Assembly: GCA_947631975.1 (NCBI GenBank)
Contig: CANRNM010000003.1
Coordinates: 1-46,734, forward strand
Source of the DNA: an uncultured Clostridia bacterium
Lineage (GTDB): Bacteria; Bacillota; Clostridia; Lachnospirales; CAG-274
DNA length: 46,734 nucleotides
Direction of reading: 5' to 3'
This document shows positions 1-46,734 of the stretch, in pieces. Both the position numbers and the translations under genes were made by a program. Every line of letters begins with the position of its first letter. Positions within the stretch are counted from its first letter, which is position 1. The notes beneath the pieces were generated by a model that saw only the letters and a list, made by a program, of their open reading frames with translations, searched no databases and had not been told where the DNA came from.

Positions 1-95
1 AATCCGACGATGCCGTAAGGCATCGCTTTCCCGAAGGGAAAGTTCTGATACCCGAAGGGCGACTGAAGGGTAAAAAATATTTTATCGACACGCAG
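1..95 (-). mobile_element. Terminator-associated non-coding element, copy C (cut by window edge)
   Basis: Read on the minus strand, the sequence directly after the mocA terminator hairpin begins GCGTGTCGATAAAATA, then runs into a CCCTTCAGTCGCCC block and three nested hairpins. The same block in the same order occurs at 24419-24520 on the plus strand, again directly after a terminator. The other end lies left of the window. It has no coding capacity. Insertion by mobility is inferred from the repeated arrangement at three sites. Confidence 0.7.
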
Positions 96-119
96 AAACA
101 CCCCTTATCGGGGGTGTTT
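96..119 (-). terminator. Intrinsic terminator of the xdh operon (element-proximal copy)
   Basis: A 9-bp stem (AAACACCCC paired with GGGGTGTTT) follows the mocA stop codon on the minus strand. The expected U-tract is poor (TTTCTGCG), because the repeat element begins right after the stem. The intact sites 4920-5221 and 24393-24898 suggest that a second copy with a good T-tract lies beyond the left edge. Confidence 0.7.
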
Positions 120-689
120 TTATATTTGCTCGTCTATGTCCGTCAGCTCCCTGTCGGCTATGGGAACTAGAACGGCATCGTCGATATGCCTTTTTATTAT
201 GCTCTTGCCTCCCCTGTCGCCCTTGAGCTTCATAAGCTCCGCTCTGTAGGCAGGCGAAAACACCGCGGGGTTTGATATATTGCCAGCGCTGTCTTTAAAG
301 CAGGCAATACCGCGCTTTGAGGATATATATTCCCTCACAAGCTCTATGAGGCTTTCGGGGCGCATATAGGGCATGTCACACACCATAAAAAGAATCGAGT
401 TACCGCTCGTAGAGCTCTGCACGCCTATTCTAAGCGAGGCGGAGATGCCCTCCGAGCTTTGGGGATTGTATATGTATTCCGCGCCCTTTTCAAGGCATAT
501 TTTTTTTATTTCGTCATAGCGCGATACGGCTTTCACGCCGTCTATATGCTCGGGAAGGCTTTTTTTGAGGGCAAGCGCGTTGTCAAGAGCAATGCCGAAA
601 AGCGTCCTGCCCTCAAAGCCGTAAATGAGCTTGTTTTCTCCGAAGCGTCTGCCATAGCCCGACGCCGTAAGAATTATGTCGATCTTCAT
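120..689 (-). CDS. mocA: MobA/MocA-like nucleotidyltransferase of a molybdenum hydroxylase cluster
   Basis: The 189-residue protein has a GT-A nucleotidyltransferase fold. The N-terminal nucleotide-binding loop is LTASGYGRRFGENKL, a variant of the family's LAAGxSxRFGxxK, and the acidic metal-binding motif is VCDMP. Family members transfer CMP to molybdopterin to make the cytosine dinucleotide form used by xanthine-dehydrogenase-type enzymes. Some members in selenium clusters (YgfJ family) have no tested activity. The start overlaps the xdhA stop by four bases, so the gene is translationally coupled as the last gene of the xdh operon. The cytidylyl specificity is inferred from family and neighbours. 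Confidence 0.85.
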   Translation of the reverse strand: MKIDIILTASGYGRRFGENKLIYGFEGRTLFGIALDNALALKKSLPEHIDGVKAVSRYDEIKKICLEKGAEYIYNPQSSEGISASLRIGVQSSTSGNSILFMVCDMPYMRPESLIELVREYISSKRGIACFKDSAGNISNPAVFSPAYRAELMKLKGDRGGKSIIKRHIDDAVLVPIADRELTDIDEQI

Positions 690-4919: not shown

Positions 4920-4946
4920 AAAGACGCCGTCAAAATGACGGCGCCT
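4920..4946 (-). terminator. Permease terminator, distal copy with intact T-tract
   Basis: Read on the minus strand this is a GGCGCCGTC...GACGGCGTC stem followed by seven T. It is a base-for-base repeat of 5195-5221, displaced by the intervening element. It is probably the original 3' half of the permease terminator. Confidence 0.8.
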
Positions 4947-5194
4947 CAGACTGTCGAAAAAGTATTTATAAAAAATTTTTCTATAACTGTCTCTTAGATT
5001 TAGCGGAATAAAGAACGACATAAAAGGCTCCCTCCGGGAGGGAGCTGTCGCCCGTAGGGCGACTGAGGGAGAATGCGCAACTAACAATATTATACTCCTT
5101 CCACCGCCTTCGGCGGTCCCCCTCCCTCGGTGAGGGAGGCTTACCTAGCATTCACAGAACAACTGAAGGATCAAAAAGCATTTTATCGACACGC
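4947..5194 (-). mobile_element. Terminator-associated non-coding element, copy A (complete)
   Basis: This 248-bp non-coding element is flanked by two identical 27-bp copies of the permease terminator hairpin. Read on the minus strand it opens with GCGTGTCGATAAAATG and closes with ACTTTTTCGACAGTCTG. These are the ends found on the unrelated-length copy B at 24419-24869. The interior is a chain of hairpins: CCTCCCTCACCGAGGGAGG, GCCGAAGGC inside GGGGGACC...GGTGGAAGG, GTCGCCCTACGGGCGAC and CTCCCTCCCGGAGGGAG. No frame has a credible start. It is probably a non-autonomous mobile element whose mobilising enzyme is encoded elsewhere. Confidence 0.75.
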
Positions 5195-5221
5195 AAAGAC
5201 GCCGTCAAAATGACGGCGCCT
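5195..5221 (-). terminator. Permease terminator, proximal copy
   Basis: The same hairpin as 4920-4946, 15 bases after the permease stop. Its T-tract is cut to TTT by the start of the element (TTTGCGTG). Confidence 0.8.
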
Positions 5222-15066: not shown

Positions 15067-15097
15067 GGGGCTGTCCTGCGAAGCCGGGACTGTCCCC
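15067..15097 (-). repeat. GGGACAGTCCC short composite repeat
   Basis: Read on the minus strand this is GGGGACAGTCCCGGC followed by TTCGCAGGACAGCCCC. It differs at only a few positions from 24586-24617 on the plus strand. A GTAGGGGCG repeat abuts it on the left. Confidence 0.75.
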
Positions 15098-15121
15098 AAA
15101 GTTAGGATAAACCTATCAGCC

Positions 15122-15217
15122 GGGGACAGTCCCGCAGTGTCCAAAACTTATTGACTGCCGGCAGCAAAAAAATACCATAACAGAGAGCAGACAACATTCA
15201 TTTTCGGGACAGTCCCC
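15122..15217 (+). repeat. 96-bp palindrome-bounded repeat (copy 1)
   Basis: It starts GGGGACAGTCCCGCAG and ends TTTTCGGGACAGTCCCC, so each end is itself a near-palindrome. Internal shared blocks are TATTGACTG and ATAACAGAGA.CAGACAA. The reverse complement of 43378-43474 aligns along its full length with a few substitutions and small indels. It is probably a REP-doublet or MITE-like element. No enzyme gene for it is in the window. Confidence 0.8.
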
Positions 15218-15244
15218 GTTCTCGCACAAATTGCACTATTTTTA

Positions 15245-15268
15245 TGTAGGGGCGACCTGTGGTCGCCC
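15245..15268 (+). repeat. GTAGGGGCGACC hairpin repeat
   Basis: TGTAGGGGCGACC is followed by its partial inverted partner GGTCGCCC. Related copies are at 16925-16950, 19384-19407 and 19502-19525. Confidence 0.7.
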
Positions 15269-16924: not shown

Positions 16925-16950
16925 GCGGGCGTGCAATGCACTCCCCTACA
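16925..16950 (-). repeat. GTAGGGGCG hairpin repeat
   Basis: On the minus strand TGTAGGGGAGTGCATTGC is followed by ACGCCCGCAG. It is a variant of the repeat at 19502-19525, in the opposite orientation. Confidence 0.65.
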
Positions 16951-16993: not shown

Positions 16994-17163
16994 GTGCGAG
17001 CCGTTTGTCTGAGCCGTAGGCTCAGGTAACGAAAAGCTCGCACTGTAACGATTCTTTTGTGCGGTATTAATTCCACTAAACTAATGGGCACAAAAGCCGT
17101 TAGGGGTGTGGGGCGACTCGGAACGCCCCACGCTTTTTGCTTCTTTTTGTGCGCAAAAAGAAG
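16994..17163. repeat. Block of four successive perfect-stem hairpins
   Basis: The stems are GTGCGAGC/GCTCGCAC (16994-17001 and 17036-17043), enclosing CTGAGCC/GGCTCAG (17009-17025). Next come CTTTTGTGC/GCACAAAAG (17054-17096) and GTGGGGCG/CGCCCCAC (17108-17131). Last is the 24-bp near-palindrome at 17140-17163. No credible coding frame covers it. It could be a structured RNA or another palindromic repeat. Confidence 0.6.
17140..17163 (+). repeat. 24-bp CTTCTTTTTG palindromic repeat (copy 1)
   Basis: CTTCTTTTTGTG joins CGCAAAAAGAAG. The exact reverse complement is at 46649-46672. Degenerate pieces (GCAAAAAGAAGA) follow at about 17179-17190 and 17210-17222. Confidence 0.7.
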
Positions 17164-17334
17164 AGAAAGAAATCTTTTATGCAAAAAGAAGAGAAAGAAA
17201 TTTTTTACGCAAAAAGAAGAATAAAATTTTACTTGCTTTTTTAAAAGCGAGGGAATAGCCTCGCAACATCAATAAAAACTCCCCCTTCATATTGTATAAA
17301 ATTAACAAATTTTTAATAATCAACATTATACCTC

Positions 17335-19332: not shown

Positions 19333-19383
19333 TTGCTGACGGGGATAGCCTTCCGTTCCTTTCAAAAATCTGTACTTCCTTTA

Positions 19384-19407
19384 TGTAGAAGCGACCTGTG
19401 GTCGCCC
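19384..19407 (+). repeat. GTAGGGGCGACC hairpin repeat variant
   Basis: ATGTAGAAGCGACC is followed by GGTCGCCC. It matches 15245-15268 except for the GGG-to-AAG change. An inverted GTAGGGGCGAG copy ends near 19488. Confidence 0.65.
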
Positions 19408-19501
19408 ACGGGAGACCGAAGGCCGGTCGTTTTGCTTCGCAAAACTGCTCGCCCATGCAACCAAGGCTCGCCCCTACAAACCAATATATGAACTAATCAC
19501 T

Positions 19502-19525
19502 TGTAGGGGCGTGCATTGCACGCCC
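19502..19525 (+). repeat. GTAGGGGCGTGC hairpin repeat
   Basis: TGTAGGGGCGTGC is followed by its inverted partner GCACGCCC. A CCCTCAGTC...GACTGAGGG hairpin block follows to about 19583, resembling the interior of element A. Confidence 0.7.
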
Positions 19526-19634
19526 GTCCCCCCCCTCAGTCAGACTAAAGCCTGCCGGCTCTCCCTAAGGGCGACTGAGGGAAAAATTTCCTCCCTTTAA
19601 ACTTAACTTTAACAAGTATTTTACACAAAAAAGT

Positions 19635-19816: not shown

Positions 19817-22800
19817 ATGCACAAGAACTTGAAAAGAATTGTAAGTGCGGTTCTTTCTATGGCAATGGTATGCTCAAGCATTACCTTTGCAGGCGTTACA
19901 AGCGCTGCTGCTGCAGAAAGCATCAAGGGTGCAAGTGCAGGCTGGCATGAAACGGCTTACACAGAGTGGACACCCGTCGCAGACGCTGCCAAGTACGAAG
20001 CATATGTTAAGAAGGCTTCTGACAGCGCTTGGACACAGCTTGACGACGAGCTTATACGTCAGTATAACACATACTGCCGTGCAGACGCTCTCGGACTTGC
20101 GGCAGGCACTTACAATATGAAGATTGTAGCAAAGAACGCTTCAGGCACTGAAATAGCAAGCTATGAATCGCCTGCTGTTACAGTTGACAATTATAAGCGT
20201 TCGGGCTTTGCCTTTTCACCGGCTTCACCCGCCAAGTCATCATCGGGCGGATATAATGACGACGGTACAGTAAAGGCAGACGCAAGGATAATTTATGTAA
20301 CAGACGCAAACAAGGACACTGTTTCACTTCCTGTTAAGTCAGGCAAGTCCGAAGTAGACTGCGTTGGTCTCGGCGCAATAATAAAGGCTCTTGAAAAGGG
20401 TGATGAGACAAGACCTCTTATTGTAAGATTTATAGGTCATGTTACAGACCCAAAAACATCGGAGCAGAAGCTTAATCAGGTAGACATCAAGCGTTCAGAG
20501 GCTCCCATTACATTTGAAGGCATAGGTCCCGATACCATCATAAAGTTTGGCTTCAATGTAGTTGAGTCCACAAATATTGAGTTCAGAAACATGGGTTTCA
20601 AGGATATGACTACAAAGGACGAGGACGGCGTTACTATAAAGGGCGGTCAGAATATCTGGGTACACCACTGTGATTTCTATTACGGCGGTCAGGGCTCTGA
20701 CGCAGATCAGGCAAAGGGCGACGGTTCCGTTGACTTAAAGGATGCATCAAATTATATCACAATTTCCGATAATCATTACTGGGATTCGGGAAAGGTTAAT
20801 CTCTGCGGTTTAGGCAAGGAGCCCCCGAACTATATCACTTATGCAAGGAACTGGTTTGACCATTCCGATTCAAGATGTCCCAGAGTAAGAGGTTATTCGG
20901 TTCATGTATACAATAACTTCTATGACGGCGTTTCAAAGTATGGCGTTGGCGCTACAAACGGCAGTTCTGTATTTGTAGACAGCAATTACTTCAGAAACAC
21001 CAATGACCCCGTTCTTATTTCAAAACAGGGTACAGACGCTCAAGGCAGCGGTACATTCTCGGGTGAGCCCGGCGGTATCATCAAGATGTACGGCAACATC
21101 ATGATGGGCGAATATTACAAGTACATCGAGGGTACAAATGCAGACGGCACATACGGCAACAATGCAGACGGTTATTCCGTACAGAACAGAACGGATACTC
21201 TTCCGTCATCACTTGTTACAAGGGCAGGCGGCACATCTTACAACAACTTTGATACAAAGGTTGATCTCGTTGCCGATGATGTTCTGGAAGCAAAGGATGT
21301 TCCCGCATATGTTGTTAAGGAAGCAGGTCGTACAAACACAAGTAATTTCAGATATGACTTTGCAAGCGGTAATGCTACCGATAAGGATTATGAAGTAGAT
21401 CCTAACCTTACAAAGCAGCTTGCAGACCTCAAGCCCACCATTATAAACTATGGCGGCGAAGTTAAAGTTAAGCCCAACACATCGGCTGCTCCCGAGAGCA
21501 CACTCGGCGTAGACGGCAACAAAGCTTATCAGGAAAAGGCTGCGGCTTATGATGCAAGAGTAAAAGACCTTCCCGCAGAGAGCGACCCCGCAGGCAATAA
21601 GGCAACAGGCGGTTCGGGCAGCAGCACGGGCGGAGAAGTAATAGGCGCAGCAGACCTTGTGCTTGACGGTTTTGCAGATATCCCCGAGGGAGAATATTCA
21701 AGCAGCAACAAGGCAACGGGCAGCTATGGCACAGACGGCGCTTTCAAACTCATAACAAATACTACCGACAAGGTTACCGTAAGCGAGAGCAAGGGTATTG
21801 CGCTTGGCGGCGGCGGCGACTTTGCAACAGGCAAGAGACTTATATCCGTAGATGTTAAGGAAGCAGGCAAGATATTTGTTTCGGGTGAATCCACAGGCTC
21901 GGATACAAGAACTATAAATATACTTGATTCAACAGGTAAGGTCGTAGGAACTATAGCAACAAGTTCAAATGCTTCCGTTGACCTTCCCGAAGCAGGTACT
22001 TATTATATCTGCTCATTAACAAAGGGTATAAACATTGAGAGAGTAGAGGTTTATTACGGCTCAAGTTCAACCGAGACTCAGACTCAGCCGACAACATCTT
22101 CTGCAACTACCACAACATCGGCAACTACTACAACATCTGCAACTACCACAACAACAGATCAGTCGCAGACAACAACTAATCCTTCCACAGAGAAGGATAC
22201 CGAGAATACTACGGAAGACCCATACGAGGATCTTTACGGCGATGTCAATAAGACAGGCGAAAGAAAGATAGACGACGTAGATATTCTTCTTACTCAGATA
22301 CTCAAGGGCAGCGTTGCTCCCGACCCCGGCAGAAACGATGTTAACCTTGATAATAAGGTAGATTCTCAGGACGTAGCAATGATACTCCAGAAGATACTTG
22401 ATTCTTCATACACTATGCCTTGCGAGGGCAAGGTCGACCTTGGCGGCGGCTCAACGCCCGAACAGCCCACAGAGGGCACAACGGCAGCGCCCACAACTCA
22501 GGCAGGACCTACTCAAGCTACTACACAGGCACAGGAGACGACCGAGAAGGCTCCCGAGACTACAACGGAAGCAGCACCTACTACAACAACGGCACAGGAG
22601 AATCCTTCCGAGGGCACAACGGCAGGTATAGTTTCAACTCCCGTTGAGCTTGGTAATGCTGAAACGGGCATTGATTCGGATGATCCCAACGACACAGGCG
22701 CCGGCGTAAGCGTAACACATGACGATGCTACTAAGACATGGACACTTACCGACAGTTCCTCAACAGCAGCGGCAAAGCTTACAATACCTTTTGCAGAGCA

Positions 22801-24379
22801 GACAAAGGGTAAGGTAGTAATATCGGGTACGGCTACTCCGACCAAAGTCGGCAGCAAGTGGATGTTTATTCAGATAAGAGGCAAGAAAGCGGACGGCACA
22901 GCTTCAGAAATAGTTGGCTTTGGCGGCGGCGAAACATCGGGTGATCTTTCGGTAAGAAAGAACGGCTCGGCTTATACAAAGCTTGGCACTCTTGAAGCTA
23001 ATAAGAAGTATGAATATACAATAGTTATTGATTTGGACGCTAAGACAGCCGATGTAACTATTGACGGTATAACAACGACCTTGACAGATCTTGATGTATC
23101 TTCTGTTGATTCCGTATTTTCAACTACATCAAAGAAAGTAGTGGATAGAAATGTTTCACTTTCAGATCCTTATGTAGGTATAGTTGAAGGCGGCAGCTCA
23201 ACACCCGAACAGCCCACAGAGGGCACAACGGCTGCACAGGCTACAACAACAGCACAGCCCACAACAGCTGCACAGCAGACGACCGAGAAGGCTCCCGAGG
23301 CTACAACAGAAGCAGCACCTACTACAACAACGGCACAGGAGAATCCTTCCGAGGGCACAACGGCAGGAGCATTCAGATTTGACTATACTCCCGAGTATGT
23401 AGCAGGTAAGACATTGGCTGCAGGCGATGTAATCTTTACAAAGGACGGCGTAACCATATCTGCGGGTCAGGCTCTTGAATATCAACAGAGATCAAAGGAA
23501 GAGAAGGACAAAGACGGTCTGGGTGATGCAACATTTGGCGGTGTTGTACAGGAAAACAGACTTAAGTCAACAGGTATTAATACATCTTTGAAACTTGACG
23601 GCGGATCATCAACAAATTATCGTGTAATGGCTAAGATAGAGGCAACAGCGGCAGCTAAGGTTTCTCTTGCAATGATAATTCCCGAGGGTAAAGGTCTCTT
23701 GTTTGCAGCTATTGACGGCAACAATGCACACACAGTCAAGAATATAGATACAACAACTGCAAGATTTGAGATAGTAACTGTTGATCTTAAGGCAGGCGAT
23801 ACTGTTTATCTTATCGGTCAAAGCACTAACCCCGAGATCTACGGCATTGATGTTGACGCTGTAGAGGGCGGTTCAACACCCGAACAGCCTTCCGAGACAA
23901 CTTCATCCGAACAGTCTTCCGAGACTACTTCATCCGAGCAGCCGTCAGAGCCCGAAACTTCCGCACCTTCGGGCGAGGGAGCAAATGCAGGCGATAGCTG
24001 GACAGCAACAGAAGGCGGAACAATGCCTAACTGGATAACTGGTATAACAGCTTCAGTAACACCAGATAATAAGCGTACTGCATATTCAACCGATAATGGC
24101 AGTGTATTTAATGACACTATAGTAATTGCTAAAAATAGTAAATTTTCTGTTACTTTGAAGGAGCCCGGAACTATAGTTCTTTATATGGCTGCAAACAATA
24201 ATGCTGCAAAAGATAAGGTTACTGTAACAGATCCTACAGGAAAAGAAGTATACAGTGGTGCAATGCCCGGCAGAGATGATTCAGCTGCTAAACCGGCAAA
24301 GATAACAGCAACAACAGCAGGCACATATGAATTTGCTAATGCATATGAAGCTTTGTTATTCAAGATTGCTGTAGAATAA
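19817..24379 (+). CDS. Secreted multidomain PL1 pectate lyase with internal dockerin
   Basis: The 1520-residue exoprotein would cleave pectate by beta-elimination outside the cell. Order: signal peptide (1-33); fibronectin-like segment (about 38-125); PL1 beta-helix (about 150-560). The beta-helix has NIWVHHCDFYYG, a calcium aspartate in DGSVDLK (D306) and R353/R358 in SRCPRVR, matching the RxPxxR catalytic motif. Next come a beta-sandwich module (about 610-748), a dockerin-like pair of calcium loops (809-862: GDVNKTGERKIDD and DVNLDNKVDSQD), and three further modules (about 938-1125, 1185-1350, 1388-1520). Thr-rich linkers separate the modules. The first two linkers after the dockerin are near copies of each other. 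The internal dockerin is unusual, since it is normally terminal. An AAGGAGGA site fixes the start. Confidence 0.92.
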   Translation: MHKNLKRIVSAVLSMAMVCSSITFAGVTSAAAAESIKGASAGWHETAYTEWTPVADAAKYEAYVKKASDSAWTQLDDELIRQYNTYCRADALGLAAGTYNMKIVAKNASGTEIASYESPAVTVDNYKRSGFAFSPASPAKSSSGGYNDDGTVKADARIIYVTDANKDTVSLPVKSGKSEVDCVGLGAIIKALEKGDETRPLIVRFIGHVTDPKTSEQKLNQVDIKRSEAPITFEGIGPDTIIKFGFNVVESTNIEFRNMGFKDMTTKDEDGVTIKGGQNIWVHHCDFYYGGQGSDADQAKGDGSVDLKDASNYITISDNHYWDSGKVNLCGLGKEPPNYITYARNWFDHSDSRCPRVRGYSVHVYNNFYDGVSKYGVGATNGSSVFVDSNYFRNTNDPVLISKQGTDAQGSGTFSGEPGGIIKMYGNIMMGEYYKYIEGTNADGTYGNNADGYSVQNRTDTLPSSLVTRAGGTSYNNFDTKVDLVADDVLEAKDVPAYVVKEAGRTNTSNFRYDFASGNATDKDYEVDPNLTKQLADLKPTIINYGGEVKVKPNTSAAPESTLGVDGNKAYQEKAAAYDARVKDLPAESDPAGNKATGGSGSSTGGEVIGAADLVLDGFADIPEGEYSSSNKATGSYGTDGAFKLITNTTDKVTVSESKGIALGGGGDFATGKRLISVDVKEAGKIFVSGESTGSDTRTINILDSTGKVVGTIATSSNASVDLPEAGTYYICSLTKGINIERVEVYYGSSSTETQTQPTTSSATTTTSATTTTSATTTTTDQSQTTTNPSTEKDTENTTEDPYEDLYGDVNKTGERKIDDVDILLTQILKGSVAPDPGRNDVNLDNKVDSQDVAMILQKILDSSYTMPCEGKVDLGGGSTPEQPTEGTTAAPTTQAGPTQATTQAQETTEKAPETTTEAAPTTTTAQENPSEGTTAGIVSTPVELGNAETGIDSDDPNDTGAGVSVTHDDATKTWTLTDSSSTAAAKLTIPFAEQTKGKVVISGTATPTKVGSKWMFIQIRGKKADGTASEIVGFGGGETSGDLSVRKNGSAYTKLGTLEANKKYEYTIVIDLDAKTADVTIDGITTTLTDLDVSSVDSVFSTTSKKVVDRNVSLSDPYVGIVEGGSSTPEQPTEGTTAAQATTTAQPTTAAQQTTEKAPEATTEAAPTTTTAQENPSEGTTAGAFRFDYTPEYVAGKTLAAGDVIFTKDGVTISAGQALEYQQRSKEEKDKDGLGDATFGGVVQENRLKSTGINTSLKLDGGSSTNYRVMAKIEATAAAKVSLAMIIPEGKGLLFAAIDGNNAHTVKNIDTTTARFEIVTVDLKAGDTVYLIGQSTNPEIYGIDVDAVEGGSTPEQPSETTSSEQSSETTSSEQPSEPETSAPSGEGANAGDSWTATEGGTMPNWITGITASVTPDNKRTAYSTDNGSVFNDTIVIAKNSKFSVTLKEPGTIVLYMAANNNAAKDKVTVTDPTGKEVYSGAMPGRDDSAAKPAKITATTAGTYEFANAYEALLFKIAVE

Positions 24380-24392
24380 TCAATCTAAAATT

Positions 24393-24418
24393 AACAGAGG
24401 GAGATTTCTCCCTCTGTT
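24393..24418 (+). terminator. Pectate lyase terminator, proximal copy
   Basis: An AACAGAGGGAG/CTCCCTCTGTT stem with loop ATTT lies 13 bases after the stop. The T-tract is interrupted after TT by the element (CTGCGTTTCG). Confidence 0.8.
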
Positions 24419-24869
24419 CTGCGTTTCGATAAAATGTTTTTTTTGACCCTTCAGTCGCCCTTCGGGTATCAGAACTTTCCCTTCGGGAAAGCGATGCCTT
24501 ACGGCATCGTCGGATTAATCTTTCCGATTCAAATGCCAGCTTCCCTGCATTGCACCGAAAGATTTATCGGACGCCGCCTAAAGTTGGGGACAGTCCCAAC
24601 TTCGCAGGACAGTCCCCTTTGACCGATAGGAACAGTAAAACAGGGCGGCGGCTTTCGGCGTAGCCGAAAGTGCTGACTTCGCAAGGACGCCTTATAGTGT
24701 TGTATCCTCTGGGTGGAAGAAATCTGCCGTTAGATTTTAAAACATTATAAGCCGTCCTTTAGCCCGTTAGGGCGTAAGGGAAGGGGGACCAATTCAAGCA
24801 AAGCTTGCTTTGTGATGAATTGGTGGAAGGGTTTATATTTGGTATAAATTTACTTTTTCGACAGTCTGC
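24419..24869 (+). mobile_element. Terminator-associated non-coding element, copy B (complete)
   Basis: This 451-bp element lies between two copies of the pectate lyase terminator hairpin (25 identical bases). It opens CTGCGTTTCGATAAAATG and closes ACTTTTTCGACAGTCTGC, the same ends as copy A. Its first 100 bp match copy C. The interior also holds a GGGACAGTCCC composite repeat at 24586-24617, an AGCCGAAAG hairpin block, and GGGGGACC-hairpin-GGTGGAAGG shared with copy A. No coding frame is credible. Confidence 0.78.
24586..24617 (+). repeat. GGGACAGTCCC short composite repeat inside element B
   Basis: GGGGACAGTCCCAAC is followed by TTCGCAGGACAGTCCCC. It nearly matches 15067-15097 in opposite orientation, so it looks like a repeat nested inside a repeat. 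Confidence 0.75.
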
Positions 24870-24898
24870 ACAGAGGGAGATTTCTCCCTCTGTTTTTT
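24870..24898 (+). terminator. Pectate lyase terminator, distal copy with intact T-tract
   Basis: The same 25-base hairpin as 24394-24418, here followed by seven T. Confidence 0.82.
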
Positions 24899-29643: not shown

Positions 29644-29791
29644 ACGTGTCGATAAAATACTTTTTTGACCCTTCAGTCGCCCTTCGGGTGTCAGAACTTT
29701 CCCGAAGGGAAAGTTCTGATAGGCGTTAGCTTGACTGAAGGGGTATGATTTGTATGTAAAAAATTCATACAATAAGATATTCTATTGACAC
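29644..29791 (+). mobile_element. Terminator-associated element, divergent copy D
   Basis: It opens CGTGTCGATAAAATAC followed by TTTTTTGACCCTTCAGTCGCCC, as in copies B and C, and holds the CAGAACTTTCCCGAAGGG hairpin. The far end, TATTCTATTGACACA, is an imperfect inverted copy of its own start rather than the usual ACTTTTTCGACAGTCTG. A terminator-like hairpin follows it on the right, but no matching copy lies on the left. Confidence 0.6.
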
Positions 29792-43359: not shown

Positions 43360-43377
43360 CGCACTTGCAGCATGGAT

Positions 43378-43474
43378 GGGGACTGTCCCGAAAAGCTCTA
43401 TTGTCTGTTCTCTGTTATAATGTTGTTCTTCTTATGAACAGTCAATAGATTTTATATTCTGCGGGACTGTCCCC
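43378..43474 (-). repeat. 97-bp palindrome-bounded repeat (copy 2)
   Basis: It is the reverse-orientation copy of 15122-15217. It starts GGGGACTGTCCCG and ends CGGGACTGTCCCC on the plus strand, with shared interior blocks CAGTCAATA and TTGTCTGTTCTCTGTTAT. Confidence 0.8.
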
Positions 43475-46610: not shown

Positions 46611-46648
46611 AACTATCATATTTACTTTTTATAAAAGTAAGTATAATT

Positions 46649-46672
46649 CTTCTTTTTGCGCACAAAAAGAAG
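46649..46672 (-). repeat. 24-bp CTTCTTTTTG palindromic repeat (copy 2)
   Basis: It is the exact reverse complement of 17140-17163. It is flanked on both sides by TTACTTTT/AAAAGTAA inverted repeats (46622-46640 and 46688-46706). The run continues off the window. Confidence 0.7.
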
Positions 46673-46734
46673 CAAAAGTTTTCATTTTTTACTTTTTGAA
46701 AAGTAAATAAAATTTTTTATTTTTCTTTTTTTTC

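Follow-up and report, generated by a model that had tools for sequence, protein, structure and literature searches.

The window, that is, the whole stretch of DNA analyzed (46734 nucleotides), is the entire contig C3 of the draft genome G000 (151 contigs, 2.02 Mb), and its base 1 is a draft contig end. A mocA-like gene, a pbuX (xanthine permease) gene, and the gene at 19817-24379 are each followed by a stem-loop and by an element of the same family, herein called C, B, and A, respectively. The features concerned are, in order of coordinates:

1..95, minus strand: element C, the left part of a MITE that the contig end truncates at base 1; its left end, CTGCGTGTCGATAAAAT, is at 95..79
96..119, minus strand: gene-proximal copy of the mocA terminator hairpin, AAACACCCCTTATCGGGGGTGTTT, with the T-run shortened to TTT by the element
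120..689, minus strand: mocA-like molybdenum cofactor cytidylyltransferase gene (TIGR03310, E=7.8e-29, below the TIGR03310 cut-off), whose terminator is the target
4920..4946, minus strand: element B, gene-distal hairpin copy, and after it the native T-run
4947..5194, minus strand: element B, a complete 248-bp MITE, from GCGTGTCGATAAAA to ACTTTTTCGACAGTCTG
5195..5221, minus strand: element B, gene-proximal copy of the pbuX terminator hairpin, 27 nt, 100% identity to 4920-4946
24394..24418, plus strand: element A, gene-proximal hairpin copy after the gene 19817-24379, 25 nt, 100% identity to 24870-24894
24419..24869, plus strand: element A, a complete 451-bp MITE
24870..24894, plus strand: element A, gene-distal hairpin copy, and after it a T-run
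29647..29750, plus strand: decayed partial copy with a left end only; its right end was not found

The elements are short (mostly 150-450 bp), present in multiple copies, and devoid of a transposase gene; they have imperfect TIRs (CTGCGTGTCGATAAA / CAGACTGTCGAAAAA) and a target-site duplication for which empty sites exist, all of which are features of MITEs. No ORF of at least 100 aa starts inside element A or B. Chance alone would give 0.07 copies of the terminal motif ACTTTTTCGACAGTCTG in the window, which contains two. The search against Rfam gave no match in the window. Other repeats were also observed: a dispersed repeat with GGGGACAGTCCC palindromes at 15067-15234, 24577-24616, and 43361-43474, one piece of which is within element A; inverted copies of the repeat TTTTGCTTCTTTTTGTGCGCAAAAAGAAGA at 17135-17229 and 46639-46677; and REP-like TGTAGGGGCGTGC..GCACGCCC palindromes at 16926-16950, 19371-19407, 19489-19526, and 15232-15268, with similar palindromes being found inside several MITE copies and also among the targets.

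At the left edge of the window, the stop of the mocA-like gene is directly followed by the hairpin and then by the element start CTGCGTGTCGATAAAAT, from 95 downward on the minus strand. Bases 1-77 of element C share 99% identity with 24440-24516, near the start of the complete element A, and about 40 related partial matches are found in G000. The proposal of the earlier note, that the mocA terminator is followed by the same element start and that the element is cut by the window edge, is thus borne out by the hairpin at 96-119, the left end at 95, and the identity to element A. Under the model of a terminator-duplicating MITE, the sequence to the left of base 1 should therefore contain the rest of an element of ~230-450 bp ending in ACTTTTTCGACAGTCTG, and after it a second ACACCCC..GGGGTGT hairpin with its T-run. 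No second copy of the 22-nt mocA hairpin was found elsewhere in the 2.02-Mb draft with up to 3 mismatches allowed, which is to be expected of an assembly-breaking repeat, since 12 contig ends of G000 sit 32-93 nt within the left half of the element. The far side of element C was sought through right ends with up to 2 mismatches, through a matching half-element at contig ends, and through synteny, and the sole outcome was contig C117 as a probable neighbor, whose base 1, judging from the synteny with the sister species G001, probably faces C3 over a gap of ~1.3 kb. In three other pairs of G000 contigs (C16-C21, C92-C107, and C124-C140), half-elements at the contig ends carry an identical hairpin (exact, 21-24 nt); contigs that the repeat has split can be rejoined with the hairpin pair as a barcode, and these three pairs were matched in this manner.

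Comparison with sister species provided both filled and empty sites. In G001, the mocA terminator is one uninterrupted hairpin, and in G002 it reads hairpin-element-hairpin, followed by a T-run and a downstream sequence that are both as in G001. The G002 element lies in the opposite orientation relative to element C and has a different interior, suggesting that this insertion was independent of that in the window. Element B is absent from the pbuX terminator of both G001 and G002, where a single hairpin directly precedes the sequence that follows the second hairpin in the window. Because of these filled and empty pbuX sites, and of the single mocA hairpin in G001, we conclude that the whole hairpin is duplicated on insertion. 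The target is the terminator hairpin, which is duplicated in full, and of its two copies it is the gene-distal one that retains the native T-run. That one family sits in terminators, flanked on each side by a copy of the target hairpin and with the far copy leading into the uninterrupted T-run, had been anticipated in the earlier note. It was observed for elements A and B, for the mocA element of G002, and for ~75 copies in G000 and related genomes, and this model is strongly supported.

This arrangement was surveyed among relatives by means of the right-end 15-mer, which has 32 exact occurrences in G000, nearly all with a stem-loop following them, and none with the reversed pattern, and is present in 11 of the 61 genomes searched, all from the same family. 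The survey comprised 144 distinct right ends from these 11 genomes, some one-mismatch matches among them being probably spurious. A 30-nt window with an MFE of -8 kcal/mol or lower follows the right end in 81% of the 144, compared with 5% of 429 control windows, and a copy of the flank is found upstream in 75/144, against 0, 0, 1, 0, and 2 when flanks were shuffled between sites. The target hairpins have no sequence in common. An ORF end is located within 120 nt at 76/79 sites, as opposed to roughly one in two points drawn at random from these loci, and this, with modest weight, and the T-runs favor 'terminator' as the description of the target; the orientation bias toward the T-run side appears weak (43 vs 37 of 76). 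At two loci, L063 (G000:C117) and L191 (G001:C25), the right end is flanked by a duplication of ~34 nt (ATACTATTTCCGTCATTTGTTGTCAATAAAG) that is not a hairpin. Four MITE copies (L024, L050, L062, and L035) and two IS1182 copies (L101 and L102) bear one hairpin at one end and a different one at the other. Such unlike hairpins call for a second process, for which recombination between copies is the best candidate.

As for the enzyme that moves these elements, ISNCY/IS1202, for which target duplications of 24-29 bp are known, was the partner tried first, and its NCBIfam model had no match in G000; the TIR search pointed to IS1182. A complete-looking element in G023 encodes a 486-aa IS1182-family transposase (NF033551, 399.9 bits vs a cut-off of 270) and has the ends GGACTTTTTCGACAGTCTG, the right one being the same 15-mer as in the MITEs; in this copy, a hairpin flanks just one of the two ends. 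A further copy in G011 has an open frame that scores 416.9 bits with NF033551. The same genome has the array hairpin-IS1182-hairpin-MITE-hairpin (L113, G011:C1), which ties the MITEs to IS1182 transposition and shows that a hairpin, once duplicated, can receive a further insertion. Chains with a second element in the duplicated hairpin were seen at L113 and also at L164 (G000:C91), L071, L201, and L221. A scan for relatives retrieved IS1182 elements in Tissierellia, Metabacillus, Lachnospiraceae, Thermotalea, and one Atribacteria MAG. Seven intact relatives have ends of the form CAGACTG-AGACAAA (CAG(A)CTG..GACAAA), the same kind of TIR as in the MITEs, immediately flanked by perfect direct repeats of 24-34 nt, every one of them a whole hairpin. 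Given these seven relatives, transposases that score above the NF033551 cut-off, terminal repeats in G023 and G011 that are common with the MITEs, and the IS1182 element beside a MITE in the G011 array, the mobilizer of the MITEs is likely an IS1182-family DDE transposase. No IS1182 transposase was detected in G000 or in G001 and G002, its two closest relatives that bear the element; the elements of the window are non-autonomous, and the MITE copies of these three genomes may be stranded. Overall, we consider it highly probable that element C belongs to the non-autonomous MITEs and owes its mobility to an IS1182-family DDE transposase for which intrinsic-terminator stem-loops are the chosen target.

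The geometry of the duplications bears on how such a target is recognized. Left-end boundaries have an uncertainty of ~2 nt, and hairpin span was taken by a simple-stem measure, since unrestricted folding is noisy because runs of A and T pair. The duplications that could be measured (n=74) are 18-43 nt long, with a median of 24, most being 21-28 nt and the mode 23-24 nt. Their center coincides exactly with the hairpin axis in 50/74 and lies within 0.5 nt of it in 65/74, their length increases with stem span (Spearman 0.47, p=2.5e-5), and 44/74 start 1-2 nt beyond the outermost G-C pair. It is about evenly balanced, in our judgment, whether one clade of IS1182 transposases responds to DNA structure, attacking an extruded terminator stem-loop at both of its 5' feet, with the size of the stem setting the length of the duplication. 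The terminator would then be regenerated and a new target created, so that several elements could accumulate as a chain in a single terminator at little cost to the gene. Recognition by the transposase would in that case be of a cruciform. The competing view, which we regard as possible though less probable, is that an ordinary dimer recognizes the dyad in duplex DNA, without any extruded structure, and cuts with a loose stagger of ~24 nt that happens to span the hairpin. Such a dimer would account for the bulk of the lengths at 21-28 nt with their mode at 23-24 nt, and for a duplication centered on the dyad, as expected on a palindrome, whereas the spread of 18-43 nt rising with stem span, the starts just outside the outermost G-C pair, and targets with no sequence in common speak against it. 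The extruded structure is favored over the duplex palindrome because the wide range of lengths is tied to stem size; a loose fixed stagger still has room because of the mode.

Terminators are benign places for an insertion and MITEs are usually intergenic, as general knowledge has it, and random insertion followed by selection that keeps only terminator-preserving insertions would fit both facts. Nevertheless, we find this very unlikely, since random intergenic insertion would not place the center of the duplication to within 0.5 nt of the dyad in 65/74, and the same geometry is found in the IS1182 elements of Metabacillus, Thermotalea, Lachnospiraceae, and Tissierellia. That the element's own terminator-like hairpin was later converted to match its neighbor, or that misassembly gave rise to the double hairpin, can be practically dismissed, because, even if the G000 assembly does break in the element (the 12 contig ends in its left half), each site has its own hairpin, the pattern repeats in independent assemblies of many species, and the orthologous empty sites, which hold that hairpin once, refute it.

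Insertion into terminator stem-loops by an IS1182-family transposase, the reading that we prefer, has consequences for the host and for the element. Past the insert, the gene would retain a complete terminator, so that an insertion at such a site would do next to no harm, and the duplicated hairpin would offer a fresh target for another insertion. The element would thus repair the terminator that it enters, and whether a DDE transposase picks its targets by their structure becomes directly testable.

Group IIC introns insert at terminators and, like the IS elements that target REP palindromes, are mobile DNA that lands on stem-loops or palindromes, the enzymes and the classes of target being different from those described here. 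The REP-targeting IS elements use palindromes as the target, and no duplication of each host's own terminator hairpin is reported for them in the accessible text (PMC1525189); group IIC introns are not known for such a duplication either. Among members of the IS1182 family, ISPse1 (PMC3281130) and ISCaa15 (PMC3196728) share the transposase family and the TIRs with our elements; however, they have direct repeats of 4 bp, in contrast to the hairpins of 18-43 nt. The ISMac2-related MITEs of Methanosarcina, of 160-169 bp, are likewise short and non-autonomous and have ends in common with an IS1182 element, but their direct repeats are listed as 4 and 0, and neither a hairpin-length repeat nor a terminator target, as found for the MITEs of this work, is reported in the accessible portion of that source (PMC3852290). 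IS1272/TnSha1, also of the IS1182 family, resembles our elements in transposase family and stem-loop targets; it sits in terminators where part of the stem-loop has been deleted, and gives no target duplication (PMC4923244). As far as the available parts of the two sources go, its targets are stem-loops, often terminators confirmed by RNA-seq, used in both orientations and with no primary sequence consensus (PMC4923244; PMC5678879). Unlike IS1272, in which the stem-loop is deleted or replaced without duplication, the elements described here keep the stem-loop and duplicate it. The model of IS1272 in Fig. 13 of PMC5678879 comprises, in the part available, a pathway a of hairpin replacement and a pathway b in which duplication of the whole hairpin is raised as a possibility, with no examples. 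Within the searchable literature (subscription reviews and ISfinder apart), and as far as its accessible text extends, that hypothetical pathway was the only mention of whole-hairpin duplication, and an earlier description is possible. Hairpin targeting in the IS1182 family was known as replacement, and the opposite outcome is documented here by ~75 MITE copies, seven intact IS1182 elements, and empty sites.
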